A DNA stretch of 38,082 nt from a virus. The notes beneath the pieces are model-generated. The model was given only the letters and a program-made list of their open reading frames with translations. It did no database searches and had not been told where the DNA came from. The first letter of the stretch is position 1. Each line of letters begins with the position of its first letter. Below are positions 490-37,758 of this stretch, one piece after another. Made by a program: the position numbers and the translations under genes. Location of the stretch: positions 1-38,082 of the IMG/VR virus record IMGVR_UViG_3300032020_000028; one strand, written 5' to 3'.

Positions 490-2148
490 TTATAAAGCAA
501 CACTTCCTTGTAATATTGCCATTTCTCCTTCAACAGTTGATACCTGTACCTTAAAACCTAACCATGTTGGGTTATTTTCAATTTCATATATTTCTATTTT
601 TTGTATTTTATCAATCAATTCTTTCAAAGAAAACTTGTAGCCCATGGTAATGCGTTCCCTTTGTAAATATTTCAAACGTAAAACAGCCTCAATAATAGAT
701 TGTTTTAATTTAGCCTCTCGAAATCCCTCTTCTTGCAACATCCCAATACTATCAGAAACAACAGAACCAAATTCTTTATGATATGGATTATTTCCTTTTG
801 ATGTTAATATAACTTTTACTAATTCTTGCAAAAGTTTTTCTTCTTCATTTATTGTAATAATATCTCCACCTGGACTAAATTTTATATCAAAATAAAATCC
901 TTTCCCTAAACATCTTGGGCAAGTATTTAGAGTATATTTTGTTCCAGATAAATTATGATTACAATCATGTTTTAATTTTGCATCAAGTAAAACTGTTTTG
1001 GACTCATCTTTTGTTTTTAAACTAAACGAAGAAACGGGAATTGATACTTCTCTAAATCTAAAAGGATCAGGAGAAGTTGGAGGTGTTACTTTTGCATTTG
1101 ATAAAATAGTTTGCTGGTTTGTTGCATAAATATTAGCATCAGATGTTAACGTTTGAGACTTTAGTCCAGATATATTAGCATCTGAAACAATCGAACCACT
1201 TGAGGTAATATTAAACTGGTCACACCCAATATCAAGATGAGTAGACGGACGCGAATCCAAATCAATATCATAATAAATGTTTAAATCAATACCACTACCA
1301 TCACACAAAGTATTTCCGTCAACAAGATGATAATAATCTGTTCCAGTAGGATCAGATCCCTCAAAAGAATTTAAATCTTTACTTCCACTACTTTGCCATT
1401 CAGCAAGAGTATTGCATATACTATCTCCGACAATAAAAGATCCGCTAGTATATGTATAATAATTATAATCAAAATCCCATAAACTATAATCGCCAGCAGT
1501 ATTTGTATCTAAATACAAAAGGTAATAATCCCTATGAGAAATAACAATATTATTTTTAAACCTTATATTAGCTGTGGCGCTTGTTTGTCTTAAATCAATT
1601 GCATACCCATCTGCACTACTAATTTGGTGAATTGTACAAAAATATATATTTAAATCATTATTAACCCCGATACAATATAAAGAAAGCTCATGACTTAAAG
1701 CAATTCCAATTGCAGAATTTTTTATTGTAAAAGGATAACAGTTTGATAAAACGCGTGCTCTTCCTTTTATTCTACAAGAATCTATAACACAATTTGCAGC
1801 AGCAACATATACTCCATAAGTAGTACCGGTATAATCTCCTTCACAACACACACATTTAACAGTAGTATAAGTTTTTCCAGCAGTAATTCCTACTCCACGT
1901 ATAAGAATAAGGCCAGCATCTCCAGTATATGTTCCTTCAATATCTCCAATAAATGTGACTCCATCATCACTTGGAGTAATATCTTCTCCAGTATAAGAAC
2001 CAGATCCTATATAAACAGTATCACCATTAACACAAGTGGTATTAGCTTTATCAATAGTTAACCAAGGACCAACTCCATAACTACTACTAATTGGAGAAAG
2101 GCCATCGTTTCCATCCCAACCAGATTTTCTTATGTAATAAATAGTCAT
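490..2148 (-). CDS. Beta-helix domain fused to gp25-like baseplate wedge protein (second copy)
   Basis: The 552-residue protein has three parts. Residues 1 to about 310 begin YYIRKSGWDGNDGLSP and contain GDTVYIGSGSYTG, the opening of right-handed beta-helix (DUF1565/pectate-lyase-like) proteins. Residues about 315-350 carry three SDANI-type 14-residue units also found in the giant repeat protein at 19948-22404. Residues about 395-552 hold a C-x-H and CPRC zinc-knuckle-like segment followed by a gp25-like wedge domain (NPYHKEFGS and LQEEGFREAKLKQSI). gp25-type proteins are conserved inner wedge subunits; beta-helix domains usually bind or cleave glycans in tail spikes. No catalytic residues can be assigned. 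The ATG overlaps the stop of the preceding endonuclease gene by one base (TAATG). It is a paralogue of the gene at 3154-5784. Confidence 0.75.
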   Translation of the reverse strand: MTIYYIRKSGWDGNDGLSPISSSYGVGPWLTIDKANTTCVNGDTVYIGSGSYTGEDITPSDDGVTFIGDIEGTYTGDAGLILIRGVGITAGKTYTTVKCVCCEGDYTGTTYGVYVAAANCVIDSCRIKGRARVLSNCYPFTIKNSAIGIALSHELSLYCIGVNNDLNIYFCTIHQISSADGYAIDLRQTSATANIRFKNNIVISHRDYYLLYLDTNTAGDYSLWDFDYNYYTYTSGSFIVGDSICNTLAEWQSSGSKDLNSFEGSDPTGTDYYHLVDGNTLCDGSGIDLNIYYDIDLDSRPSTHLDIGCDQFNITSSGSIVSDANISGLKSQTLTSDANIYATNQQTILSNAKVTPPTSPDPFRFREVSIPVSSFSLKTKDESKTVLLDAKLKHDCNHNLSGTKYTLNTCPRCLGKGFYFDIKFSPGGDIITINEEEKLLQELVKVILTSKGNNPYHKEFGSVVSDSIGMLQEEGFREAKLKQSIIEAVLRLKYLQRERITMGYKFSLKELIDKIQKIEIYEIENNPTWLGFKVQVSTVEGEMAILQGSVAL

Positions 2149-3134
2149 TAATTAATCCAATTTAATAATTCTATTTTTACTTCTTCTGTATTAGTTAAAA
2201 TATCACTTTGCCAAAATCTTAATAAAACAAATCCATTATCTTTTGCTGTTATAGAATGTTTAATATCCCGTTGTTTATTTTCTTTTTGTTTCTTACTTAA
2301 TTTAGAATACTTTTTCGGATTACCGTGCCAATAGTCTCCGTCAACTTCGATGAGGGTGTTGGTATTTAAAATGTGAAAGTCAAATAAGTGATTTTCTAAT
2401 CTAAATTGATGTTCAAAAGGAATATTCAAACTATTAAGAATTTCTTTCATTTTAAGTTCTGGTTTGGTGTCTTTAAATGGTCCAGGGTGAGTTTGAATTC
2501 GGAGTAAAGCACTTTTACTCATTTTTTCTTTTGATTCTTTAGAACAAGGTATATTTTTATGAGATTCGCTTGATTTTTTTAAACTTTCATTAGTCTCTTT
2601 TGTTAATCCCTTACTCCAACTTTTATGTCCTAATAATTTTTTAATTCTTTTTCTTACTGTTTCTTCAGATTGTTTTGTGCCTAATTTTTTATCTCTCATT
2701 TTTTGTTTAGATTCTTCAGAACAAGGAATATTTTTATTCCATGCGGCATGTCCTTTGTTTGCTTCACTAATAGTTCTTAATTTATATCCATTTCTTATAA
2801 TAATAGCTCTAATAGCTACATCACTACAATTCCATTTTTTAGATAAAACTATAGTACTCGGTTTTTCTTTAGAAAAATATTCATTACAAACTTGCAATTC
2901 TTCTTCTTTTGTAAATATTTTACGGGCTTCTTCCTTAGTTCTTGGTTTATGTCCATTTCGTTTAAGAATACTTGTAATTGTGGGATTAGTGCATCCCCAT
3001 CTTTTAGCTAAAAGTACTCCAGTAGTAGTGGTTTTACTAAAATATTCTTTACAAATTTCTTTTTCTTGATCGTCTGTAAATTTCTTATGTATTTTTTTAT
3101 GTTCTTCTGTTTGTTTATATCCTTTTTTTGGCAT
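2148..3134 (-). CDS. Free-standing homing endonuclease, HTH + NUMOD3 + Vsr-like nuclease
   Basis: The 328-residue protein has two tandem helix-turn-helix-like repeats (residues about 20-66 and 73-120, each ending in a RNG-x-K-x-RT segment). Next comes a run of NUMOD3-like elements with repeated SEE-x-K/R segments (about 128-210). A C-terminal PD-(D/E)XK/Vsr-like nuclease domain follows, with [10 protein letters not shown] and [12 protein letters not shown] (E263, D265, D267, H270). That layout matches the I-Bth0305I-type endonucleases, which cut intronless or intein-less alleles and spread their own gene. It sits between the two beta-helix/gp25 genes as a selfish insertion, and its N- and C-termini are nearly identical to those of the gene at 6353-6979. 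The start has AAGGAT upstream. A role in virion building is not expected. Confidence 0.85.
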   Translation of the reverse strand: MPKKGYKQTEEHKKIHKKFTDDQEKEICKEYFSKTTTTGVLLAKRWGCTNPTITSILKRNGHKPRTKEEARKIFTKEEELQVCNEYFSKEKPSTIVLSKKWNCSDVAIRAIIIRNGYKLRTISEANKGHAAWNKNIPCSEESKQKMRDKKLGTKQSEETVRKRIKKLLGHKSWSKGLTKETNESLKKSSESHKNIPCSKESKEKMSKSALLRIQTHPGPFKDTKPELKMKEILNSLNIPFEHQFRLENHLFDFHILNTNTLIEVDGDYWHGNPKKYSKLSKKQKENKQRDIKHSITAKDNGFVLLRFWQSDILTNTEEVKIELLNWIN

Positions 3135-3153: not shown

Positions 3154-5784
3154 TTACACCAATATTTTTCCTGTTAATTCAACTTTTTTACCATGAATAG
3201 TGACAACATAGATAGCGAAACTTAGTTCAGTCGCAGAAAGTTCTGCAATTTCAACTTTATCAATTCTATCAATAAGTTCATGAGATGAAAAATACCCATT
3301 TTGAGTACTTTTAGCTGCTTCAGCTTTCTGATATTTAATTAAATTAAAAATAGATCTCAAAATATCTGATTTTACAACTGTTTTTAATTCTTCTTGACTT
3401 ACTTGACCTATCCTTCTTTGAAGTTTCGCTCCATAATCTGGATGAAAAGGATTAAAATCTGTTAATGTAATTTTTTCTAATTCTTGAGCTAATTTAACTT
3501 CATCCCACACTTGAGGAATTAATCCTCCAGCATCAAATCTTACATCATAAAAATATTCTTTTCCTAAACATCTTGGACAAGTTCCTAAAGTATATTGAAC
3601 ACCTGATAAATAATGTGTACAAGGCCATTTAAATTGAGGTTCTCTATAAGGAGTTTTTCGTATTCTAATTGGACCTGGACCAATCCTAGGAGAAACGTCA
3701 AATCTAAATATATCTGGAGAAGTAAGCGGAGGAACCTCATCAGCTCCTATATCATAACCAAATCTTAAAGGACGTTTTTGTAAATCAATATCACAAAAAA
3801 CATTTATAATAAAATCTTTCCATGTAGCAGTTGCGGTATCAATACAAGGAGAAGTTCTTTCAAGAGTTCCAGAAAGATGATATCCATCATCCAAAAATAA
3901 AGGATCTCCTTCAAAAGAACCACTATCTTGAGAAGTAGCATTTCTCCATTCTTCAAAAGATTGATAACTCACAATATTATCGTGGTAAAAATTACCAATA
4001 TCTGTAGAGGAACTATAATAAAAATTATAAGCATACTCATCATAAGGTAAATTACTATGATCAATTTCCTTATAAAGTATCCATTCATTCGGACCATTAG
4101 TTTTTTGAAAAATGTTATTTACAATAAAATTATAAGGACCTGTTATATTAGCGCAAGCTCCTACCATTAAAGCAGAACCACTATTATGAATAAAAGTATT
4201 ATGAAAAATCCAATTACTTCTACATCCAGTAATAGCATTTATAGTATATCTTGCATAACTTGGATCGGCCATATAAGAGTTGGAATGGGCAACACAATTA
4301 ACAATTCGCATACAATAAGCACCATACATCCAAAGAGCTTTGTCTATTATTAATTGACGAAACTCACATCCGTGGGAATTGTAAATAACAACTCCGCCCC
4401 TAATTGTCGGAGCATAAACATACTCATCGTAAAAATGAATATTTTCGAGCCATAAATGATGTTTTCCACTATTATAAAAAGATTCTACTTTAATTTCCCC
4501 TTTATCTCCAGTATGTATTCCTTGCCGATCTCCATACCATTTAGTATAAGAACCACTTTCTGGCACTACTAAATCTTCAGCATAAGAACCAGACCCAATA
4601 TAAACAGTATCATAATTTTTTATAACACTTGTTGCTTTTCCTAAAGTTAAGAAAGCGGTTGAAGGAGATAGTCCGTCGTTACTATCATTACCTGTTTTTC
4701 TTACATAATAAATACAAGAATAACTTGAAGATGCTCCTTGCCACTCAAAACACCCTTTATCAGAAGAGCTTCCATATGGTCTTATATTTCCTTCAATATC
4801 TTCATCGCATACATTTGGAGAGCCAGTATCAACACAAGGAGAAGAAGCATTTAACCTATATCCTACAGGTTCTTTCATATACCCTAATACATTTGCCCAA
4901 CCTTTAGAACTATGACTATCCATACTAGATGAAATTAACTGCCATTGTTCTAAATTTTTTACAATTGACCCATTGTTGTATATAAAATTTCCTTCATAAT
5001 ATTCATAGTGATTATAATTAGAATAAAAGAAAGAAGCAGTTCCTAATAACTTATAAATTCCGTGAGCAGAACTAACATAATAAGGGTTAAAATTTATAAA
5101 AATATTATTTCTTGAGCGAACAATAACCCCATCAGTGGCTTGTATATTTATGTCAAAATTCGAACTTGTTGCATTAAAAATAGTGCAATGATACAAATTT
5201 AGGTATACAACTTGATTTTGAGTATTATTATTAATAACAAGAACAGTATCTATAACCTCTTCTTTATAACCAAGAAAACAATTTTCAAAATATATATTTG
5301 TATTATTTATATAAGATCTTTCAGCTACCTTACATTTAATTACATATGTATATGTAGCGTCAGGATCAAGAACTGAGGACCAAGCATAAATACTTCCATA
5401 ATAATCTATTATTGGTGGAGGAGTTTGATATGACCCAAACAAATCTATATTTTCAATATATGCATAAGCATCTTTTAAATAAGCAAAGTCAACTCGAACA
5501 GGACCAACTTCTGGAAAAATAATGCCGCTTGGATCCCCAATATAAGATATTGGATAAGCAACAGAACCAGACATTGTTATCCATATATGATCCCCTGATT
5601 TAGTAAAAGGACTTTCTGCAGAAGTATAAGTTCCCGCTTCAATATAAACAGTATCACCAAAATCTATTGCATTATTAGCCTTACCAAGAGTTCCCCAAGG
5701 ACCATGTCCTCCTCCTTCATCAGTTGGAGCTAATCCATCCCAACTATTATCCCCGTGTAATTTGCTTATGTAATAAAAAGGCAT
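3154..5784 (-). CDS. Double beta-helix domain fused to gp25-like baseplate wedge protein (first copy)
   Basis: The 876-residue protein contains two tandem beta-helix modules. The first (residues 1 to about 350) opens YYISKLHGDNSWDGLAP and the second (about 357-695) opens YYVRKTGNDSNDGLSP. Each has the GDTVYI/YDTVYI-x-x-G-x-Y signature and many NN/N-x-I turns typical of right-handed parallel beta-helices. Residues about 735-876 carry C-x-H and CPRCLGK, then a gp25-like domain (NPFHPDYGAKLQRRIG). gp25-family proteins are normally about 100-150 residues, so this is a wedge subunit with large N-terminal decorations. By inference the wedge domain anchors the beta-helices at the baseplate rim, where they could act as receptor-binding or glycan-degrading modules. 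It starts 4 nt after the previous stop with no clear Shine-Dalgarno, suggesting translational coupling. Confidence 0.78.
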   Translation of the reverse strand: MPFYYISKLHGDNSWDGLAPTDEGGGHGPWGTLGKANNAIDFGDTVYIEAGTYTSAESPFTKSGDHIWITMSGSVAYPISYIGDPSGIIFPEVGPVRVDFAYLKDAYAYIENIDLFGSYQTPPPIIDYYGSIYAWSSVLDPDATYTYVIKCKVAERSYINNTNIYFENCFLGYKEEVIDTVLVINNNTQNQVVYLNLYHCTIFNATSSNFDINIQATDGVIVRSRNNIFINFNPYYVSSAHGIYKLLGTASFFYSNYNHYEYYEGNFIYNNGSIVKNLEQWQLISSSMDSHSSKGWANVLGYMKEPVGYRLNASSPCVDTGSPNVCDEDIEGNIRPYGSSSDKGCFEWQGASSSYSCIYYVRKTGNDSNDGLSPSTAFLTLGKATSVIKNYDTVYIGSGSYAEDLVVPESGSYTKWYGDRQGIHTGDKGEIKVESFYNSGKHHLWLENIHFYDEYVYAPTIRGGVVIYNSHGCEFRQLIIDKALWMYGAYCMRIVNCVAHSNSYMADPSYARYTINAITGCRSNWIFHNTFIHNSGSALMVGACANITGPYNFIVNNIFQKTNGPNEWILYKEIDHSNLPYDEYAYNFYYSSSTDIGNFYHDNIVSYQSFEEWRNATSQDSGSFEGDPLFLDDGYHLSGTLERTSPCIDTATATWKDFIINVFCDIDLQKRPLRFGYDIGADEVPPLTSPDIFRFDVSPRIGPGPIRIRKTPYREPQFKWPCTHYLSGVQYTLGTCPRCLGKEYFYDVRFDAGGLIPQVWDEVKLAQELEKITLTDFNPFHPDYGAKLQRRIGQVSQEELKTVVKSDILRSIFNLIKYQKAEAAKSTQNGYFSSHELIDRIDKVEIAELSATELSFAIYVVTIHGKKVELTGKILV

Positions 5785-6352: not shown

Positions 6353-6979
6353 TTATATTATAATTTTTAATTTATTTTTAATCTCTTTTTTATTATTTAA
6401 AATAGCATCTTCCCAAAATCTTAATAAAATAAAACCATTATTTATAGCTACTTCATTATGTTTTTTATCTCTTTCTCTTTGTTTCAGTTGTGTTTTATTT
6501 AATTTACTAAACTTTTCAGGATTACCATGCCAGTAGTCGCCGTCAACTTCAATGAGAGTATTAGAATTGAGAATATGAAAATCAAATAAATGATTTCCTA
6601 ATCTAAATTGATGTTCAAAAGGGATGTTTAATTCATTAAGAATCTCTTTCATTTTAAGTTCGGGCATAGTGTTTTTGTAAGGACCGTGTTGAGTTTGAAG
6701 TTGCAATATAGTATTTTCCCGCATTTTTTGTTTTGTTTCTTCAGAAAAAGGAAGTCTCTTTTTACCTTTATGTGATTCACTCATATTTCTTTTTGTCTCT
6801 TCAGAAACAATCTTACCTTTTTCTGATTTGCTTATTTTTCTTTTTGTTTCATCAGAACAAGGATTATGTTTACCAAACATAGGGTGCTTTTCACCACAAT
6901 AATCCCCCCTAACAACAGGATTATTTTCTCTTATTTTCTGTTTGTGTTCTTCAGTTTGTTTATATCCTTTTTTAGGCAT
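6353..6979 (-). CDS. Free-standing homing endonuclease, NUMOD3 + Vsr-like nuclease
   Basis: The 208-residue protein starts [13 protein letters not shown], as does its paralogue at 2148-3134. It lacks that paralogue's two helix-turn-helix repeats. Residues about 28-90 contain NUMOD3-type elements (GEKHPMFGK and several SEETK-x-K/R-x segments) that are expected to contact DNA. Residues about 100-208 form a Vsr/PD-(D/E)XK-like nuclease with [19 protein letters not shown] and [12 protein letters not shown] (E144, D146, D148, H151). This resembles the I-Bth0305I homing endonuclease family. A GGAG site lies about 8 nt before the ATG. The gene separates the spike gene from the 172-residue gene and does not interrupt a reading frame that I can see. 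Confidence 0.85.
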
Positions 6980-19131: not shown

Positions 19132-19929
19132 TTAAATTCCTCCTGAGAACTTCGAGGCGCCTCTGAGGGCACGACTGAGCGATCTAGGAAAACCAACAGT
19201 TGAACTAAATAATCCTCTCATTCCAAAATTATTAAAGGCATACATTTGTTTTATTTTTCTTAACTCTTCTGAATATGCTTGTATTAATGATTGATAAATA
19301 GATAAGTATTTACCAGATCTATCTCTTGTAATACTTATACCATTATCATTATATGAAAAATGCTTACCCGCCTCTAAAATTTCGAGACCGATTAAAGCAT
19401 GAATAATCGCACCTAATTCTACAACTCTATAATACTGCTGTGGTAAACTCACAAAACTAAAAGCAGTCACTAATGGAGGCTCAGCATTAAACCAATCTAA
19501 TCCATTTTGTAGAAAATCTAACATTTCCCTATTGCTTAAGTATTTATTTCTATATCCACCAGCATCTAAATGCATATATAATTTTGATCGCATAGCATCT
19601 AATAAAACACCTTCAACAATTGCCTCAGCTGGATCTTTTAATTTAAAAATATTTGGTACATCCTGAGTTGTATAAACTCCATTTATCCACCCCGACCACC
19701 AAGCACCATAATATCCAAATTTCCAACTTGCATTTGGAGTAATTGTGAGATAGTAAAGACCAATAGAATCTCTTACTCCTGTCCCTCCAACAATTTGATA
19801 CGTTCCATCTTGATACATAATATTTACATTTACAGATCCTGAAGGGTCAATTAAATGAAACGTGGCATCTTTAAATTCTGCCCAAATTCTTTCTGTTTGG
19901 CCTTTAAATATAAATTGGATAAAAATCAC
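19132..19929 (-). CDS. Connector/neck-type virion protein, beta domain + helical domain
   Basis: The 265-residue protein has an N-terminal beta domain (residues about 5-95, with ATFHLIDPSGSVNVNI and GLYYLTITPNASWKFG). It resembles the small Ig-like or BppU-like domains of phage structural proteins. A helical domain (about 100-250) follows, with VVELGAIIHALIGLEILEAG and repeated aromatic and lysine helices. The order is consistent with a head-tail connector or neck adaptor. The start is uncertain. The only canonical in-frame choice is the GTG at 19929, but GGAGG abuts it with no spacing. A non-standard ATC a few codons later is better placed for that Shine-Dalgarno. Confidence 0.6.
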   Translation of the reverse strand: MIFIQFIFKGQTERIWAEFKDATFHLIDPSGSVNVNIMYQDGTYQIVGGTGVRDSIGLYYLTITPNASWKFGYYGAWWSGWINGVYTTQDVPNIFKLKDPAEAIVEGVLLDAMRSKLYMHLDAGGYRNKYLSNREMLDFLQNGLDWFNAEPPLVTAFSFVSLPQQYYRVVELGAIIHALIGLEILEAGKHFSYNDNGISITRDRSGKYLSIYQSLIQAYSEELRKIKQMYAFNNFGMRGLFSSTVGFPRSLSRALRGASKFSGGI

Positions 19930-19947: not shown

Positions 19948-22404
19948 TTAATCATCATAAGGATCAATATGTTTTTCTTTGTTTGTTGAATCAATATAAC
20001 TTCGAACGCTTTTTGTTTCAACGTAAGAATTAGGATATCCAGGTTGAATATAAGATTTTTGATCAGTACTAATAATTTCTCCTTGTCCTTTTCCTAAAAT
20101 GCAAGCGTTCGATATAATAGTCCGTTGTTTTACTCCTATAACATGAGCATCTGAAACAATAAACTGTTGAACTATAACAGAAACATAAGTATCAGATACA
20201 ATTGTCTTTTGAACATTTACAATTTCTACATTAGTATTAGATGCAATTGATTTTTGAACCTTTCCTTTTACATTTGCATCAGATACAATTAACTTTTGAA
20301 TATCAACTTTTTCTATATTAGCATCAGAAGTAATTATCTTCTGAATATCAACAATTTCAACATTAACATCTGAAACAATTACTTGTTGAACATTTTCTTT
20401 TCTAATATCAGAATCTGATACAATTACTTGTTGTTGTGTTTTTGCAACATTAACATCAGATATAATTGTTTTCTGTATATCGACAGTTTCAATATTAGTA
20501 TTAGAAGCAATTGTCTTTTGAACATTTACAATTTCTACATTAGTATTAGATACAATTGGGTGCTGTTTAACTGCCTCAATATTAACATTTGCCTGAATAG
20601 TTTGTTGTTTTACAATTTCAACATTAGCATCTGAAACAATTACTTTCTGAATATTAACTTTTTCTACATTAGCATCTGAAACAATTACTTTCTGAATATT
20701 AACTTTTTTTACATTAGCATTTGCTATAACTAATTGTTGAATGTTGCCAGTTTCAATATTAACATCAGATATAATTGTTTTCTGTATATCTACAGTTTCA
20801 ATATTAGTATTAGAAGCAATTGTCTTTTGAATATCAACTATTTCAATATTAGTATCTGAAACAATAAACCGTTGACCAGCTACAAAAACATAAGCATCAG
20901 ACGCAATTAACTTTTGAATACCAACTTTTTCAATATTAACATCAGATACAATTAACTGTGGAACATTTATAATCTCTACATTAACATTTGAAGTAATAAA
21001 TTGTTGTTCTACTACAGAAACATTAGCGATAGATACAATTGTCTTTTGAATACTTACAGTTTCAACATCTGCATTAGATACAAGCAATTGTTGAACATTT
21101 ACAGTCTCTACATTAGCATTTGAAACAATAAACTGTTGTATATTTACTTTTTCAATATTAGCATCTGAAACAAGTATCTCTTGTATACCTACAATTTCAA
21201 TACTAGCATTAGATTGAAATGTTTTCTGTATATCAACTTTTTCTACATTAGCATCTGAAACAATTATCTGCTGAACATCAACAATTTCAATATTTGCATC
21301 TGAAACAATTACTTGCTGAATATCAACTTTTTCAATATTACCATCAGATACAATTGTCTTTTGAACATTGACAGTTTCAATATTAGCATTAGATTGAATT
21401 GCCTGTTGTTTAGTAACTCCTATATTAGCATCTGAAACAATAGTCTTTTGAATGTTAACAGTTTCAACATTAGCATTAGATAAAACTGTTTGTTGTATGT
21501 TAACAGTTTCTACATTAGTATCTGAAACAATAAACTGTTGACCTACAACAAAAATATAAGCATCAGATACAATTACCTTTTGAATATCAACTTTTTCAAC
21601 ATTAGCATCTGAAGTAACTATTCTCTGTTTTACAATCTCTACATTAGTATCAGATACAATTGTTTTCTGTATATCTACAGTTTCAACATTAGCATTTGAA
21701 GTAATAAATTGCTGTTCTATCGCAGAAACGCAAGCATTAGATAAAATTGTTTTCTGTATATCTACAATCTCTACATTAGTATCAGATACAATTGTTTTTT
21801 GTATATCTACAGTTTCTATATTTGCACCAGATACAATAGTCTTTTGAATGTTTACAGTTTCAATATTAGTATCAGATACAATAAACTGTTGAATATCAAC
21901 TTTTTCAATATTCGCATTTGATAGAACTAATTGTTGAACAGCCTTTTCAATATTAGTATCTGAAACAATAAACTGTTGTCCCACAATAGAAACATAAGCA
22001 TCAGATAAAACTGTCTTTTGAATGTTAACAGTCTCAATATTAGCATCTGAAACAATAGTCTTTTGAACAACAGTTTCAACATTAGCATTAGATACAATTG
22101 TCTTTTGAATGTTTACAATCTCAATATTAGCATTGGATACAATAGTTTTTTGTATATCTACAACTTCAATATTAGCGTCAGATTGAACCGTTTGCTGTTT
22201 AGTAACTTCAATATTAGCATTTGAAACAATTGTTTTTTGTATATCTACAACTTCAATATTAGCGTCAGATTGAACCGTTTGCTGTTTAGTAACTTCAATA
22301 TTAGCATTTGAAACAATTGTTTGTTGTTTTGCTTCAACAGTTCCATCCCAAATTCTAATGGTGTCGTCCCAGTAACCATAATCCCATATGTAAATACTAG
22401 TCAT
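19948..22404 (-). CDS. Giant tandem-repeat protein (about 51 SDANIE-type units)
   Basis: The 818-residue protein starts MTSIYIWDYGYWDDTIRIWD, then consists almost wholly of 14-15-residue units with the pattern S-D/N-x-N-I/V-E-x-V-x-I-Q-x-x-I-V (residues about 30-770). It ends with a non-repetitive tail rich in Tyr, Ser and Lys. The alternating hydrophobic pattern suggests short beta strands stacking as a fibre or solenoid. No known domain is recognised. Three units of the same kind occur in the wedge fusion protein at 490-2148. A virion fibre or adhesin is a reasonable inference from that link and from its place in the structural operon. AAAGG lies before the ATG. Confidence 0.75.
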   Translation of the reverse strand: MTSIYIWDYGYWDDTIRIWDGTVEAKQQTIVSNANIEVTKQQTVQSDANIEVVDIQKTIVSNANIEVTKQQTVQSDANIEVVDIQKTIVSNANIEIVNIQKTIVSNANVETVVQKTIVSDANIETVNIQKTVLSDAYVSIVGQQFIVSDTNIEKAVQQLVLSNANIEKVDIQQFIVSDTNIETVNIQKTIVSGANIETVDIQKTIVSDTNVEIVDIQKTILSNACVSAIEQQFITSNANVETVDIQKTIVSDTNVEIVKQRIVTSDANVEKVDIQKVIVSDAYIFVVGQQFIVSDTNVETVNIQQTVLSNANVETVNIQKTIVSDANIGVTKQQAIQSNANIETVNVQKTIVSDGNIEKVDIQQVIVSDANIEIVDVQQIIVSDANVEKVDIQKTFQSNASIEIVGIQEILVSDANIEKVNIQQFIVSNANVETVNVQQLLVSNADVETVSIQKTIVSIANVSVVEQQFITSNVNVEIINVPQLIVSDVNIEKVGIQKLIASDAYVFVAGQRFIVSDTNIEIVDIQKTIASNTNIETVDIQKTIISDVNIETGNIQQLVIANANVKKVNIQKVIVSDANVEKVNIQKVIVSDANVEIVKQQTIQANVNIEAVKQHPIVSNTNVEIVNVQKTIASNTNIETVDIQKTIISDVNVAKTQQQVIVSDSDIRKENVQQVIVSDVNVEIVDIQKIITSDANIEKVDIQKLIVSDANVKGKVQKSIASNTNVEIVNVQKTIVSDTYVSVIVQQFIVSDAHVIGVKQRTIISNACILGKGQGEIISTDQKSYIQPGYPNSYVETKSVRSYIDSTNKEKHIDPYDD
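20090..22320 (-). repeat. Tandem repeats encoding 14-15-residue units
   Basis: DNA repeats of 42-45 nt (or doublets near 87-93 nt) cover most of the gene. They are diverged at most positions. At the 5' end (about 22150-22320) a 93-nt doublet is nearly identical in two consecutive copies, pointing to recent slippage or unequal recombination. All unit lengths are multiples of three, so the frame is kept. Confidence 0.9.
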
Positions 22405-22463: not shown

Positions 22464-22874
22464 CTATTTTGTTTGTAAAAATATTTCACCTGTTGGGTAA
22501 ATTTGTAAAATTCTCTGTATATTTTTTCCATTCGCAGTCGACTGCCAGCCCAACAAGTAACATATAATTTTAGGAGAGCCAACATTAACTCCAGAAACTT
22601 CCCGTTGGACTCTTTTATAGTAAATGATTCTATATTTTGCATTTCGAAGAGGTATTCCTAATTCAGCCTCCGTAATTAAATTTAACCTTACCCCAGTAAT
22701 ATAAAAACTCCCATCTAGCAAATTGATTGAATAAATCTTACCATCTTCTACTAACTCAAGTCGTTCTAACTCATTTTGTCTATCCAAAACTTCCCTGAAT
22801 AGACGCTCTTTTCCGCTATCACTATATTGTTCCAAAACATGTTGATTTCTAAAATATGCTCTCCACTTTAACAT
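22464..22874 (-). CDS. Unknown small virion-region protein
   Basis: I do not recognise this 136-residue protein. A helical, charged N-terminus (residues 1-45, with LFREVLDRQNELERLEL) is followed by a beta-rich body containing KIYSINLLDGSFYITGVRLNLITE and KYRIIYYKRVQREV. There is no signal peptide or membrane segment. A strong AAAGGAGG precedes the ATG at 22874. It lies just before the giant repeat gene in transcription order and may be a structural partner, but no specific role can be given. Confidence 0.6.
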   Translation of the reverse strand: MLKWRAYFRNQHVLEQYSDSGKERLFREVLDRQNELERLELVEDGKIYSINLLDGSFYITGVRLNLITEAELGIPLRNAKYRIIYYKRVQREVSGVNVGSPKIICYLLGWQSTANGKNIQRILQIYPTGEIFLQTK

Positions 22875-23689: not shown

Positions 23690-24391
23690 TTAAACAATTA
23701 TCACTCTTCCTGGGTAACTTAAACAACCGCCTATTCCCTTTGGAGAACCAACTACATCTATATGATTGCCGTTCGGTCCTCTATCTTTGATAGATCCTGT
23801 AGCTACCACTCCACCAGACCAGTCATCCCCTGGATAGTAAGCTACTAACTTAGTTGATTGAATCATCAAAGGTAAACCCTTTCTAAAAGCTACATATAAC
23901 TGGTTAATCTCAGCAGTAGTCAATTGAGCATTCCAAAGAGCAACCTCAGATATCTTTCCATCAATTTGACTGCCCTCAATACCTCCAAGCATGCAAGTAT
24001 AATCTGGACCAGATTTAGGAGTTAAAGCTGTTTTTGCAACACTATAAAGAGTTTGATTTACCGTCAAATAAAGATAAGTTGAAGTGATTACTCCACAAAG
24101 AAAATACCACATATTTAACGCAAGGTTTACATCGAAAAGATTATACTTATAACTTGTTCCATCTCCATAACCCACATTTACATCTGTTGGAGTACCCAAA
24201 CTAAACCCCAAACCATAATTCCAATTCTTTACTAAAGAGCCGCCTCCCGCTAAAAATCTTTTAAGCAAACCACTATTTCCATCTAATGGACCGGTATCAA
24301 TTTTTATCCACCCGGACATAGTTATAGGAAGAGCTGCAATTGCATTAACATCTTTTGCAAAATAATTATTTGCACTAATATCTACTGCCAC
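23690..24391 (-). CDS. LamG/concanavalin A-like lectin-fold protein
   Basis: The 233-residue protein has the layout of a LamG-type jelly roll. An ITMSGWIKID strand opens the core, with YGLGFSLGTPTDV and WYFLCGVITSTYLYLTVNQ in the middle. The typical ISEVALWNAQLTTAEINQLY and LVAYYPGDDWSGG...DRGPNGNHIDVVG segments follow. These features are common in domains that bind surface glycans, so it is a candidate host-binding virion protein. The start is GTG at 24391 with GGAGG upstream. It follows the fibre-like gene with a 9-nt gap and precedes another beta-rich gene. Confidence 0.82.
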   Translation of the reverse strand: MAVDISANNYFAKDVNAIAALPITMSGWIKIDTGPLDGNSGLLKRFLAGGGSLVKNWNYGLGFSLGTPTDVNVGYGDGTSYKYNLFDVNLALNMWYFLCGVITSTYLYLTVNQTLYSVAKTALTPKSGPDYTCMLGGIEGSQIDGKISEVALWNAQLTTAEINQLYVAFRKGLPLMIQSTKLVAYYPGDDWSGGVVATGSIKDRGPNGNHIDVVGSPKGIGGCLSYPGRVIIV

Positions 24392-24400
24392 TTATCCTCC

Positions 24401-26275
24401 TTATGCTGGAGTATATTCTAAACTAAATGCAACTACATCTAAATCATTTTTTGCAGTGTCAGATGCATTATTAGCATCTCTACTTAAATATAAAACCACA
24501 AAGTCTCCAGCTACTAAACTATCTGTATTTGTAAGAGAAATTGATATTTCTTTCATATACCCAACAGTTCCTGGAACAGTATCCGTCGCACTGTTTATTG
24601 TTCCCATAGCATCTGCATATATATCTTGAGCATCTCCAGGAGTTACAGCCATCAAAGCAACTCCAACAACAACTGAACCACTCGTTGCTACTGGCATTGT
24701 ATATTGAATTTTAGCTGTTAGGCCACTTCCATAATCTGCGGGCATTCTAAACGACCAATATAAGAAACTATCAGTAGTAGAATTGAACCATGCTCTCATA
24801 AAATGAGGGCTCGGGGCACCTGCTGAAGATTTTACTCTTTCTATTGTTGCTGCTAAATTACCAGCGGTGCCATCAGGAAGAGTAGCAGCTTCTATTGGAA
24901 GAATTATAGTTTTAGTAAATACATCACCAATTAAACTTCCCTTTACTTCTAAATTACCACCAATCAACGCATTATTTTGGACTCTCAGAGATTTTACAAC
25001 TGAACCTGAACTTGCAGATAAAATAGTTCCATTTATATATAAATTATTACTAAATTCAAACCTCAACGTATCTTTATTCCATTTCAATTCCTCATGTCCA
25101 GAAGTTTTATAAAATTCAATCTTAGGATCCACAGCCGCAGCAGCTGTATTTAATCCCAAAACATCCCCAGTCGCATAAAGAACTCCAGTAACCTTCAAAT
25201 CATGGCTAAGTTCAAATATACTATAGGTTTTATTCCATCTAAAAGTTTGTGTACCAGGATCAGGATTGCCAAAATATAAAATAGCATCCGCGTTAGAATA
25301 ATCATAATTTACATAAATATCCCCATCAAATCGTCCTTCACCTTCTACTTCTAAACTCCCTCCTATCTGTTCATTGTTTTGAACCCTTAAAGATTTAACA
25401 ACAGATCCAGAACTTGTAACTGTTATTGGTTGATCTGTTTCTGCTCCTCTTTCACATACATCATCTAAAGTATCTGTAGTAACAACATTACCAATTATAT
25501 TACCACCTACCTGTAAATCATTTACAACATTCAAAGATTTTAATACTGAACCTGAAACAGAAACTTCAATAGTTCCATTTATATACAAATTGTTACTAAA
25601 ATCAAACCTTAAATCTGTTTTATCCCATATCAGGGTTTCATACCCAGAAGTAGGTTTACAGAAAGTTATTACAGCATCAACATTAGAATAATCTACATTC
25701 AGATTTACATTACCGTCTGCACTTAAATCTCCATCAACCCACAAATTTCCATTAGCTGAATCAAGGGACATTCTATTTGCATTACCTGCATCCTTATCTC
25801 TCCACCAAAAAATGTTGCCACAGTCAAAATACATAGAGCTACCAGCACTTGAATAAAAATGGATATATCCATTATTACAACCAAATGACAACCCCCCCAA
25901 TGACTGAATTGTTGTTTGACCTGTATTAGTAGTAAATAATTCTCCACCAATATTTAAATTATTCTGCACTCTTAATGATTTTAAAACTGATCCTGAACTA
26001 TCAGCTAAAATATTGCCTTTTACTTCTAAATTTCCACCTACTAATTCATTATTTTGTACTCTTAAAGATTTTACAACTGAGCCAGATGCAGTTACAGTAA
26101 TTGTAACATCTGTTTCTGCACCAACTTCGCACACTTGATCCAATGTAGTAGAATGTGGATTAGCAGAACTAGAAGCGTGAACATCCAGTCCTACTTTCAG
26201 AAAATCAAAGTTTTCTCTTATAGGCAAACTTGATAAACTACCAGATTCTTCTGGAAAATTATTATACCAAATCAA
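24401..26275 (-). CDS. Fibre-like appendage protein with VQNN repeats (long paralogue)
   Basis: The 624-residue protein opens with NNFPEESGSLSSLPIRENFD and a VHASSSANPHSTTLDQV segment typical of phage appendages. Five SGSVVKSLRVQNN-x-x-x-GG-type units and several LKWNK-x-x-LRFEFSNNLYINGT-type units alternate through residues about 60-480. A beta-rich C-terminal domain (about 480-624) follows. It probably forms an elongated trimeric fibre, by analogy with repeat-built tail fibres, but no catalytic or chaperone domain is visible. TTG at 26275 is the start, supported by AAGGAG at good spacing. The protein at 36649-37758 shares both unit types. Confidence 0.72.
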   Translation of the reverse strand: MIWYNNFPEESGSLSSLPIRENFDFLKVGLDVHASSSANPHSTTLDQVCEVGAETDVTITVTASGSVVKSLRVQNNELVGGNLEVKGNILADSSGSVLKSLRVQNNLNIGGELFTTNTGQTTIQSLGGLSFGCNNGYIHFYSSAGSSMYFDCGNIFWWRDKDAGNANRMSLDSANGNLWVDGDLSADGNVNLNVDYSNVDAVITFCKPTSGYETLIWDKTDLRFDFSNNLYINGTIEVSVSGSVLKSLNVVNDLQVGGNIIGNVVTTDTLDDVCERGAETDQPITVTSSGSVVKSLRVQNNEQIGGSLEVEGEGRFDGDIYVNYDYSNADAILYFGNPDPGTQTFRWNKTYSIFELSHDLKVTGVLYATGDVLGLNTAAAAVDPKIEFYKTSGHEELKWNKDTLRFEFSNNLYINGTILSASSGSVVKSLRVQNNALIGGNLEVKGSLIGDVFTKTIILPIEAATLPDGTAGNLAATIERVKSSAGAPSPHFMRAWFNSTTDSFLYWSFRMPADYGSGLTAKIQYTMPVATSGSVVVGVALMAVTPGDAQDIYADAMGTINSATDTVPGTVGYMKEISISLTNTDSLVAGDFVVLYLSRDANNASDTAKNDLDVVAFSLEYTPA

Positions 26276-27945: not shown

Positions 27946-28741
27946 TTAAGAAGCACATGGACAAGGAATTCTACCAGTGAAGGTACCCTTAGCAACTGAA
28001 TTTGCATTAACTATAAGCATTCCAATTTCCTCATAACCAACATATGCGATGAGTGCTCTTTTTGGCTCATCGTCCGGCATTAAAATCAAATCAGTACGAA
28101 TAGGTAATACTCCAGTAAATCTCGGTTCAGAGAAACAATATACTGTACTTGCAGGAACTAATCGAGAAACGATAATATCAATTCCCCAAATAGAACCCAT
28201 CAAGCCAGTTTGCATAATTTCTCTTTGAGTTACTGGATCCACGTCATCCCTTTGCCACGATCTAATATGAGAATAAGACTTCATGTTCATTAAAAATGCA
28301 TACGCAGGTAAATCGTGATCCTGAACAGTAGCCGCCAATTCATTTAGAAAATCTTTGTTAAGACCAGTCGTACTGGTAACAATTGGATTGTTAGCAGTAT
28401 TTGCTAAAACAGTAGCTAACGCTAAAGCCAAAAACTGAGTATCTTCCTCTAACTGAACATGAATCCTAATCTTCTCTTGCATACGATCTAAAACATTGAA
28501 CCTACGCTGTTGGATTTCAGATAACCTAATTCCCTCAGGAGCGAAAATCTCCCAAGTCTTAGGCTCAACATAATCTCCCTCAACGATAAAATCAATAATT
28601 TCACCACGCTTTGCAACAGTAGTTGCAAAACCTGCGATGTCACGATCGTAACGCGCAATTTGTCCTTGTGCTAATACATCGATCTCAAAAAACCTTCTGG
28701 CCATGCCTTGGTAATCTAAAGTTTCCCTGATTGGTATCGCC
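27946..28741 (-). CDS. Major capsid protein, exon 2 (C-terminal part)
   Basis: After splicing this exon encodes residues 65 (last base) to 329 of the capsid protein. It continues AIPIRETLDYQGMARRFFEI, a segment typical of HK97-fold capsid proteins. It then has the long helix and beta hinge regions, and a C-terminal IVSRLVPASTVYCFSEP... part that ends CPCAS. The segment upstream of the first in-frame ATG (28704) continues the same open frame only to the intron boundary, so the ATG is internal. With exon 1 the protein is 329 residues, a normal capsid length. This is inferred from sequence pattern and gene order after protease and decoration genes. The stop is followed by a strong stem-loop. Confidence 0.88.
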
Positions 28742-29592
28742 CTAACTTGTTACTACGTAATAGATTACGTAGGGCTGATCATTTCTGTCAACCTCTATAT
28801 GTTTCCATATAGCTCGGACTATATCTTCAATCTTTCGATTGTTCCACGTATAGTCTCTGAGGATTCCTAATCTTATATTGCATACAAGGAGGTGTATAGG
28901 TTAATAAATAATCTTCTAACCTTTCTCGAGTTCTTCTCGCAAAATAAAGTTTCCACCATTTCTGATTTTTAATTATTGATGTATAAAGACCTAATTTTTT
29001 AAACAAATGCTCTCTTATTAGTTTTTGTTCCTCAAGAGTAAAAGCACAGGTAGACAAAAAATATTGCTCAGATTTTTTATTAAAATATCCATCATCACAA
29101 AACCATAATACAAACCCAGCAATCGTAAGCATATCTAATATTTCTTTAGTCACAATTTTTTGTCCATTTTTATACATCAATTCCCATAAATAAAATAAAT
29201 CCGAATGAGATACAGAATTAAGGTGGAAATATTCATTCCCTGTTGCACGATCTCTCCAAACCATTATTTCTTTATCCAAAAAAATCGAATGTAATATTTG
29301 AACTTTATGTTGTAAATACTGTCTTGATTTCTGCCCCAATTTCAAATAACAATAATTACCAGAACGAATTTTTTGCAAACACCCATCTCCTAAAGCAGTA
29401 CCTACAACCGCCCCCATAATATCTGGAGATAATCGTTGTTGTCTTATTTCTAAAATTCTTTTTCGTTGTTCTTTAATAAACATTTTAGGTTTCCTGCTGA
29501 TTGCCCCTATCTTACAAATTATTACTCTTTGGTATTGTAAGCTTAACAGGGTGTTCCAGCATATAGTAGAATTACCAGACAGCGATTATACT
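28742..29592 (-). ncRNA. Group I self-splicing intron in the capsid gene
   Basis: The 851-nt intron has all key group I elements on the minus strand. P1: exon end CCAGAU pairs with intron GUCUGG, with a U-G pair at the splice site. P10: exon 2 start GGCGAU pairs with intron AUCGCU. P4: UGCUG pairs with CAGCA. The R element (CAGAGACUAUACGUGG at 28859-28844) and S element (AAGAUAUAGUCC, 28827-28816) form P7. The last intron base is G (28742). Splicing joins AT and G as a Met codon and restores a 329-residue frame. The loop between Q and R elements holds an endonuclease gene. Confidence 0.93.
28827..29483 (-). CDS. LAGLIDADG homing endonuclease inside the capsid intron
   Basis: The 218-residue protein has two LAGLIDADG-type motifs, VVGTALGDG (residues 26-34) and GFVLWFCDDG (123-132). 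Each has the acidic residue that helps bind catalytic metal, so it is a single-chain enzyme. Such proteins cut intronless capsid alleles near the insertion site and promote intron spread. Some also act as maturases. The gene starts at ATG 29483 inside the intron, 8 nt after an AGGA that is part of the Q element. It runs into the R element, and its stop overlaps the S element. The open frame is intact, so the endonuclease is probably functional. Confidence 0.93.
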   Translation of the reverse strand: MFIKEQRKRILEIRQQRLSPDIMGAVVGTALGDGCLQKIRSGNYCYLKLGQKSRQYLQHKVQILHSIFLDKEIMVWRDRATGNEYFHLNSVSHSDLFYLWELMYKNGQKIVTKEILDMLTIAGFVLWFCDDGYFNKKSEQYFLSTCAFTLEEQKLIREHLFKKLGLYTSIIKNQKWWKLYFARRTRERLEDYLLTYTPPCMQYKIRNPQRLYVEQSKD

Positions 29593-29786
29593 ATCTGGGC
29601 ACCAAGGGCAGACCTTCCAGCCTCTGTCTGTAGCAAAGTCCAAATTTGTTCACTCTCATCAGCAGTATTGTGAATATTATAGGGATCTAATTCCGTAAAA
29701 TCCCCTTTCTTTACTGCAAAACCGCTTTTGGGAGCTTCTTTTCTAAATCCAGGTGGATACGAACTTGCTTTTGCTTTGAAGGCCAT
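29593..29786 (-). CDS. Major capsid protein, exon 1 (N-terminal part)
   Basis: The exon runs from the ATG at 29786 and ends two bases into codon 65. It encodes MAFKAKASSYPPGFRKEAPK, a region with ELDPYNIHNT, and helical IWTLLQTEAGRSALGAQ. Without splicing the frame would stop after two more codons (TAA at 29588-29586), so the intact capsid protein depends on intron removal. AGGAGGTG lies at good spacing in a leader identical to that of the preceding decoration gene. Together with exon 2 (27946-28741) it makes a 329-residue protein. I expect this to be one of the most strongly made proteins of the phage. Confidence 0.88.
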
Positions 29787-35219: not shown

Positions 35220-35414
35220 TTAATTTATTTTTCCATTAGTTGGGCCAATACTAAATTGTCTATCTGTAGGAATAATATAAACTTTTTCCCTTCTTATTGA
35301 GGGAATTTTTATAAAAGTATTTGATATTAATGTTTTGAGCCAATGTAATATTCCTCCAAATCCTCTCGTTATAATTAATGAGTCAAACCCAAATCCTCTT
35401 GTAATAATTTTCAT
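35220..35414 (-). CDS. Small ITRGFG-motif phage protein
   Basis: The 64-residue protein starts at the ATG at 35414, which overlaps the previous stop (TGATG). A TTG one codon earlier is a less likely start. It contains two ITRGFG segments (residues about 4-9 and 15-20), then LKTLISNTFIKIPSIRREKV. The duplicated ITRGFG motif is one I associate with short proteins near phage head genes; its function is not known. Translational coupling with the upstream 175-residue gene is likely. Confidence 0.55.
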   Translation of the reverse strand: MKIITRGFGFDSLIITRGFGGILHWLKTLISNTFIKIPSIRREKVYIIPTDRQFSIGPTNGKIN

Positions 35415-35941
35415 CAAATAGATCCTGAAACAAAAACTCTTTCAAACACGTTCGTCATCGAGGGATTTCCAATGCTATCTTTCAAATCAAATACTAACAA
35501 AGGAGTTGTTCCATCTTCTTCATAAAAAAGCATTTGATTGTTTATTATCTTCCACCTTCCACATTCAACTTGCTTTATAATTGATATTTTTGCTTCAAAA
35601 TCAGAAAAGAATAAATAATCTGTATCTTTTCCCTTATACGATCCAGATGCAATTTCGTAAATAGCAGCAAGTTTCATCGAACCTGAAACTACTTGGGATG
35701 AATCCCAAATCTTTTGATAAAAACCACTTCCAATATCTGTTAAATAAGGCTTTTTACCACTTCCTATCGATCCAGAACCAAAACTAAAAACATTTATATT
35801 AAAATCTAAGTAAAAATTATTTTCTAAATTTCTTATTGATACTGTTGGTTGTTCTCCTTCTTTACCTTCTCCTAAACTACTTTGCACATATAATTCTAAA
35901 ACAACGATATCTCCTATACTATACTGAAATGTATTTGACAT
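35414..35941 (-). CDS. Beta-rich virion protein with GRWKI-NNQM motif
   Basis: The 175-residue protein starts with an IVVLELYVQSS strand. Several SGS-containing beta segments follow, then GRWKIINNQMLFYEEDGTTP and LLVFDLKD (residues about 130-160). That pattern is common in small structural or appendage proteins of tailed phages. There is no signal peptide. AGGAGA lies about 12 nt upstream of the ATG, a somewhat long spacing. Its overlap with the ITRGFG gene suggests the pair is made together. Confidence 0.6.
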   Translation of the reverse strand: MSNTFQYSIGDIVVLELYVQSSLGEGKEGEQPTVSIRNLENNFYLDFNINVFSFGSGSIGSGKKPYLTDIGSGFYQKIWDSSQVVSGSMKLAAIYEIASGSYKGKDTDYLFFSDFEAKISIIKQVECGRWKIINNQMLFYEEDGTTPLLVFDLKDSIGNPSMTNVFERVFVSGSI

Positions 35942-36648: not shown

Positions 36649-37758
36649 TCAAGGTTTTGTAAAATCAATCTGGATAGCAAGTTGAGTTACAGTTCCCGCA
36701 GTTGAAGCAACCATTATTTCTAGTTTTTCTCCAACCGCATAAGCAGTGTTTTGGACTGCTCCTCCATCTAACCAAATATCAGCTAAAGTTAAAGACAAAG
36801 CTGAGGCTAAATGATTAAGAGAACCGCTACATCGAGCGTTTATAGTTGCTCCAGTTCCTCCAACTCTATATCCTCTAACATTTGTAACTGTGCAAGCAAA
36901 TGGAGCATACCAAACTATAATATTTAAAGCAGCGTTTGCTATTCCTGCAGAATTATAAAGGGTTCCTCCTCTAGAAAGAATATTCTGCCCTATTATTGTT
37001 CCACCAACTTGTAAGTTATTTACAACGTTTAAAGATTTAAATACTGACCCTGAAGTTAATACTTGAATAGTTCCATCGACTTTAGCATTTCCATCAACTT
37101 CTAAACTTCCTCCTATCTGTTCATTATTTTGAACTCTTAAAGATTTAAGAACAGAACCAGAGCTTGCAGTTATAAAATAATTATCAGTAAATACAGGATC
37201 ACTAAATTCAAATCTAAGATTTGTCTTATTCCATTTTAAAGTCTCTTCCGAACCACCAGACTTGCCAAAATGGATAACTACATCTTGATTAGCAAATTGA
37301 TAATTCAAATAAAGGTCATTTCGAGCCAACAGTGAATACCAAGTTTCTATATTTCCTTTAATTTCGATATCACTATTTACATATAAATAATCGCTAAATT
37401 CAAATCTCTGATTAGTATTATTCCACTTTAGAGTTTCAGTTCCAGTAGTTGGTTTATTAAATGTAATGATTGCATCATTATTACTCGCATTTTGATTTAA
37501 AGTTAAATCTTCTCCAAATATATTACCTTCAACTTCTAAACTTCCACCTATCTGTTCATTATTCTGTACTCTTAAAGATTTTACAACTGATCCTGAAGTA
37601 GAAACTGTAATTGGATGACTTGTAGAAGCTCCCTGAGTACAAACAATATCTAATGTAGGGTAAGAACCTGAAATCATTTGAGCAACTTCCTCATCAGTTG
37701 CTATATTTCCAGTACCGGCAGTATCAATTTGTTCTTTTTTTAATTTACCTTGGACCAT
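36649..37758 (-). CDS. Fibre-like appendage protein with VQNN repeats (short paralogue)
   Basis: The 369-residue protein has an N-terminal segment ending in a STSHPITV strand, then three SGSV-x-KSL-x-V-x-NN-type units. It also has two TLKWN-x-TN-x-RFEFSD-type units, and a beta-rich C-terminal domain (about 270-369). It shares these units with the 624-residue protein at 24401-26275, with high identity at the DNA level in the VQNN units. It is probably an elongated virion appendage, but which one is unknown. The ATG overlaps the previous gene by 14 nt, with AAAGGGG just upstream. Confidence 0.7.
   Translation of the reverse strand: MVQGKLKKEQIDTAGTGNIATDEEVAQMISGSYPTLDIVCTQGASTSHPITVSTSGSVVKSLRVQNNEQIGGSLEVEGNIFGEDLTLNQNASNNDAIITFNKPTTGTETLKWNNTNQRFEFSDYLYVNSDIEIKGNIETWYSLLARNDLYLNYQFANQDVVIHFGKSGGSEETLKWNKTNLRFEFSDPVFTDNYFITASSGSVLKSLRVQNNEQIGGSLEVDGNAKVDGTIQVLTSGSVFKSLNVVNNLQVGGTIIGQNILSRGGTLYNSAGIANAALNIIVWYAPFACTVTNVRGYRVGGTGATINARCSGSLNHLASALSLTLADIWLDGGAVQNTAYAVGEKLEIMVASTAGTVTQLAIQIDFTKP

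Follow-up and report, generated by a model that had tools for sequence, protein, structure and literature searches.

Gene content of the window

The window, i.e. the whole stretch of DNA analysed here, is a 38-kb virus record (38,082 nt) that contains late genes of a phage with a contractile tail, almost all of them on the minus strand. Judging by the gene content, these are genes for the head, neck and tail of a myovirus that is distant kin of Bacillus phage G. The major capsid protein is 37% identical to its counterpart in Bacillus phage G, the tail sheath matches phrog_2839 (E=3e-40) and its gene is followed by a putative tube protein gene, and the baseplate hub protein carries an M23 peptidase domain. 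A gene encoding a long repeat protein, built of units that we call SDANI units, lies in the one-strand run between the capsid genes and the neck, sheath and baseplate genes, flanked by two conserved genes of the head-neck segment. The features considered below are as follows.

19948-22404, minus strand: gene of the SDANI-repeat protein (818 aa, ATG start), a candidate accessory virion stalk or fibre
22312-22404, minus strand: N-terminal cap (residues 1-31) with the motif YxWDxxxWDDx(x)RIWDG, which is present in each of the family's five complete N-termini
20071-22311, minus strand: repeat array covering residues 32-778, divided by segmentation into 51 units of 14 or 15 residues
22121-22327, minus strand: most recent duplication in the array, with a period of 87 nt (29 aa, two units) and 91 nt exact
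19951-20070, minus strand: C-terminal tail (residues 779-818), assigned by alignment to the tails of relatives
22464-22874, minus strand: upstream neighbour, directly adjoining the downstream neighbour in distant relatives without the array gene
19132-19929, minus strand: conserved gene on the downstream side; relatives have it at about 80% identity, and it weakly matches head-tail connector phrog_17327
490-2148, minus strand: gp25-like (sheath initiator) baseplate protein with an N-terminal beta-helix-like domain (PF10934, E=2e-6, below the cut-off; phrog_43, baseplate wedge)
1087-1194, minus strand: spacer of three SDANI units within this gp25-like protein, matching the 818-aa protein with E=2.9e-5

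Several other features of the window deserve mention. The major capsid gene (region 27946-29786) is split into an ORF for the 66 N-terminal amino acids (29586-29786) and the remainder (27946-28704), and an ORF for a LAGLIDADG_2 endonuclease (28827-29483, E=1e-25) sits between the two parts; no Rfam intron matched at the split gene at the gathering threshold. In L005, L006 and L007 the capsid gene is a single uninterrupted ORF. Free-standing genes resembling NUMOD3/DUF559 homing endonucleases are found between virion genes at 2148-3134 and 6353-6979, and the relatives contain many genes of this type at different places. A second type of repeat, SGSVxKSLRVQNNxxIGGxLEV, is common to the proteins encoded at 24401-26275 and 36649-37758, which are likely fibre proteins. 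The former gene adjoins a Laminin_G_3 lectin-like gene (23690-24391), and neither of these two was found in the corresponding segment of several distant relatives.

Repeat pattern and predicted structure

Segmentation of the 818-aa protein yielded 51 units, the first anchored at residue 32 and the last at residue 765, with 33 intervals of 15 residues, 17 of 14 and no other spacing. The autocorrelation of the sequence was 0.36 at lag 15, compared with a maximum of 0.14 in 200 shuffles (lags 5-60), and 0.12 at lag 5. Segmentation (residues 32-778) and autocorrelation together confirm the claim of an earlier note on this DNA that about 51 units of 14-15 residues fill most of the protein. Six proteins with 139 15-mers in total gave the family consensus S-[DN]-[AT]-N-[VI]-x-x-x-[ND]-x-Q-[QK]-x-[IL]-x, with S1 conserved in 98% and Q11 in 96% of the 15-mers. 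In the same set, only positions 5 and 14 are always occupied by large hydrophobic residues, position 3 being a small A or T; the alternation of hydrophobic residues proposed earlier is thus not strict. Nor does the description of the units as near-uniform hold at the DNA level, as same-length units of the gene are on average 71% identical. The 14-residue units have one residue fewer within the variable positions 6-10, ahead of the Q pair. The units contain many I, V and T residues, and their content of beta-branched residues is very high, while Gly makes up about 2% (2.1%) and Pro 0.6% of the window protein, and the unit has no conserved Gly column. When the final residues of the last unit (GKGQGEI) are included, the tail can be aligned with the GGKGQGxIxS...I.. 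tails of L026, L003, L004 and L038, and the C-terminal GxGQGxI is common to four family members.

Two known repeat families were compared with this pattern. First, the protein could be a pentapeptide-repeat protein (right-handed quadrilateral beta-helix, Rfr fold), possibly a DNA mimic. It is similar to this family in composition and in the A-N-I / V-D-I triplets, it matches Pfam Pentapeptide_4 with E=6e-9, and its best PDB match is NP275-NP276 (E=6e-9). However, the Pfam scores fall below the gathering cut-off (36.2 vs 38 and 15 vs 20.2), the homologues from L026, L003 and L036 have no profile match, and all database matches are about 17-31% identical. Moreover, the hydrophobic positions 5 and 14 do not follow a 5-residue period, and because of the 14-residue units such a register would be lost at 17 of the 50 steps. 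Given the sub-threshold score, the unmatched homologues and the lack of 5-residue periodicity, membership in this family was dropped as very improbable. Second, the left-handed parallel beta-roll of YadA and BpaC also consists of 14-15-residue layers with two strands each and grows by layer duplication. The SDANI units do not show the canonical YadA/BpaC layer, GxNSVAIGAxSxAx, in which Gly is invariant at position 8 (PMC9543794); hence, although the layer length fits, membership was rejected, and the array resembles such a roll at most.

AF2 modelling of the full 818-aa protein gave a pLDDT of 68 and a pTM of 0.38. For residues 309-471, modelled as a monomer from an alignment of 16 in-register rows of non-overlapping repeat fragments, the values were 69.5 and 0.58, respectively. 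In both runs each unit was predicted to form one strand at positions 5-10 and another at positions 13-1, with D-A-N and Q-Q forming the turns; helix was absent. Foldseek searches found no match to either model in the PDB at E<1, and no match to the second one among viral models at E<=0.001. As AF2 over-predicts beta-solenoids from repeat sequences (PMC11795689), the models back beta structure but do not prove a solenoid. The earlier suggestion of a beta-solenoid or fibre is therefore supported as far as an elongated, beta-rich repeat protein is concerned, while the solenoid fold itself is not established, at a pLDDT of 68-70 and with no PDB match.

Alternatively, three intertwined chains could form a trimeric fibre shaft of the kind found in adenovirus. 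The adenovirus-type triple beta-spiral has a roughly 15-residue repeat with a loop of variable length, and Gly or Pro is conserved at the beta turn of such shafts. The period of 15, the restriction of the 14/15 difference to positions 6-10, as in a variable loop, and the tight S-[DN]-[AT]-N turn are all consistent with this fold; the small number of core hydrophobics per chain would be expected if three chains shared a core, and the monomer AF2 run was only moderately confident. On the other hand, the turn has no conserved Gly or Pro (2% and 0.6%), the usual core positions are occupied by invariant Gln, and units of the same kind are part of a gp25-like protein, the counterpart of which in T4, gp25, is present in a single copy per wedge. 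Overall, we consider a trimeric shaft unlikely.

Duplications and distribution of the array gene

Exact internal repeats of 35-344 nt, several per gene, were found in all four long array genes. The shifts between the copies are always multiples of 3 nt and nearly always correspond to whole units; the 344-nt repeat, found in L003, is shifted by 7 units. The doublet noticed earlier at the 5' end of the window gene (22121-22327) does exist, with 116 of 120 positions matching and 91 nt exactly repeated, but its period is 87 nt, i.e. one 14-aa and one 15-aa unit, instead of 93 nt. The pN/pS ratio among units is 0.41-0.60, and therefore the unit is under constraint (purifying selection). This ratio is one of the observations at odds with a flexible, largely disordered low-complexity spacer, in which regularity would arise from duplication alone. 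The others are the strong conservation of S1, A3, V/I5, Q11, Q12 and I14 across divergent units and phages, and the abundance of beta-branched residues, with Gly and Pro nearly absent. The low confidence of AF2, the small number of core residues and the tolerance of gp25-like proteins to a linker of 1-6 units would agree with disorder, which we nevertheless regard as quite improbable.

The array gene is present at the same place in the close relatives L003 (477 aa), L026 (956 aa, on a 168-kb contig) and L038 (618 aa), as well as in L004 and L005, where it is cut by the contig ends; a more distant phage, L036, has a 279-aa form that adjoins a different gene. In the complete genes, 51, 58, 36, about 26 and about 14 units were recognised. 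All of these genes have the same N-terminal motif (five complete N-termini), and a scan of viral contigs with it matched this family only. Full-protein scans of viral and genome contigs returned no matches because peptide patterns drawn from variable units fail; the relatives were found with profiles built from units. A literature search for this repeat retrieved nothing relevant. The array gene is absent from the locus in seven more distant relatives and is therefore dispensable in the lineage; in L009, L043 and L046 the two flanking genes adjoin each other directly. The SDANI-repeat protein is real and restricted to this lineage. The host is hinted at by L038, which belongs to a bin labelled Candidatus Cloacimonadota, but the label could also be a binning artefact. 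When 99 genomes related to that bin were searched with a profile, the repeat was found only in the bin itself. L005 also encodes, at 343-981, another SDANI-repeat protein of 212 aa with about 11 units, next to a homologue of the window gene 35414-35941; therefore, one phage can carry two array genes.

The arrays of G002 and G004 are identical over 574 codons, while the next gene differs by about 5-17%. The array DNA of L004 (1-2538) and L026, which come from different samples, is 100% identical, and the directly following genes are 83-95% identical. No copy-number change within a population was seen in G002/G004, the single near-identical pair of arrays available, which argues against hypervariable length on that time scale. 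As far as can be judged from these sequences, the pattern suggests block exchange between phages (or a shared assembly) rather than rapid length change. The earlier suggestion of ongoing length change is supported insofar as unit number differs widely among relatives and the internal duplications are exact, whereas current change is not established, the only near-identical pair being unchanged.

SDANI units in gp25-like proteins and the likely role of the array

In gp25-like proteins, 1-6 SDANI units sit between the gp25 domain and an N-terminal domain that varies. Three units follow the beta-helix-like domain in the window protein, and five follow an F5/8 type C (discoidin-like) domain in L039; in L027 and L029 six units follow a 20-residue leader, the beta-helix being encoded by a separate ORF; and L028 retains one relic unit and a beta-helix N-terminal domain. 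Thus, the N-terminal domain is swapped while the spacer and the gp25 domain stay. Such reuse is the strongest evidence that the unit serves as a structural spacer.

On balance, we lean towards the view that the 818-aa protein serves the virion as an accessory stalk or fibre, in which 51 two-strand units stack into one rod with its length set by unit number. The virion location, the single-chain solenoid stacking and the role in adhesion or spacing are what we infer from the evidence taken together. A short N-terminal cap (WD...WDD.RIWDG) would start the rod; each unit of 14-15 residues would provide two short beta strands joined by the S-D/N-A-N and Q-Q turns; and the stack of 51 units would form one long rod ended by the short C-terminal tail. 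Rod length would depend on unit number and would shift over evolution through whole-codon recombination between units. The likely job of the rod would be to hold something off the head, neck or baseplate surface, or to touch host surface polymers, in the manner of other head fibres and decoration proteins of phages.

We favour this stalk or fibre because the array gene sits in the virion-gene cluster, between the capsid and the neck, sheath and baseplate genes, because syntenic relatives of 477, 618 and 956 aa keep the same terminal motifs, and because unit number varies and the units are reused as a gp25 linker. The exact whole-codon duplications, the pN/pS of 0.41-0.60 and the two strands per unit predicted by AF2 point in the same direction. 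Against it stand the modest quality of the models (pLDDT only 68-70, pTM 0.38-0.58, no PDB fold match) and the lack of the array gene in seven relatives that are more distant. A solenoid core with just two fully hydrophobic positions per unit would also be thin, and the single relic unit of L028 could not form a solenoid on its own. In BpaC, however, the core is hydrophilic, with a rise of 4.8 A per 14-residue layer (PMC9543794); therefore, thin hydrophobic cores do occur in such rods.

Among phage appendages, the head fibres and decoration proteins (phi29 gp8.5, T4 Hoc, SPP1 gp12) are similar in being accessory, elongated, encoded in the head cluster and dispensable in relatives, but they have a different repeat and no common base domain, and the SDANI protein is a putative virion component, placed there by gene order. 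A direct relationship to phi29 gp8.5, the stem of which is a trimeric helix-turn-helix supercoil, could be proposed, as this protein was listed in the PDB profile search at E=0.0027 and 0.006, the ten residues QQLLVSNADV are identical in both proteins, and both genes lie downstream of the capsid gene. The single-unit score is, however, 23.6 bits, for which the estimated chance expectation is a few per PDB-sized search; gp8.5 is alpha-helical at the matched stretch, while the I/V/T-rich SDANI units are predicted to form strands; and only 31 aa precede the array, compared with the gp8.5 base of about 110 residues, composed of two small beta-barrels at the N-terminus (PMC6542822). Because the base and the secondary structure differ, this homology was set aside as weak despite E=0.0027, and we find it highly improbable. 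The tandem arrays of BACON domains in tail proteins of crAss-like phages (PMC6949934) are likewise tail-associated repeats that expand by duplication and transfer, but BACON units are whole domains, whereas SDANI units have 14-15 residues.

More tentatively, the SDANI unit could be a new minimal beta-stacking module, used both as a particle rod of about 14-58 layers and as a gp25 spacer of 1-6 layers that mounts different adhesion domains, with length changing via recombination; we see this as possible but somewhat doubtful. One genome shares the short module between a free-standing rod and a baseplate protein. If the rod is indeed a single chain, few repeat modules known from phage appendages would be shorter than this unit, and copy number would code for length; the system would also offer a natural experiment on the tuning of phage reach, and the unit could be considered as a building block in the design of beta rods.

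Finally, the window contains two gp25-like domains (490-2148 and 3154-5784), both with a CxHxLSGxxYTLxxCPRCLGK motif, which is zinc-ribbon-like and atypical of gp25.
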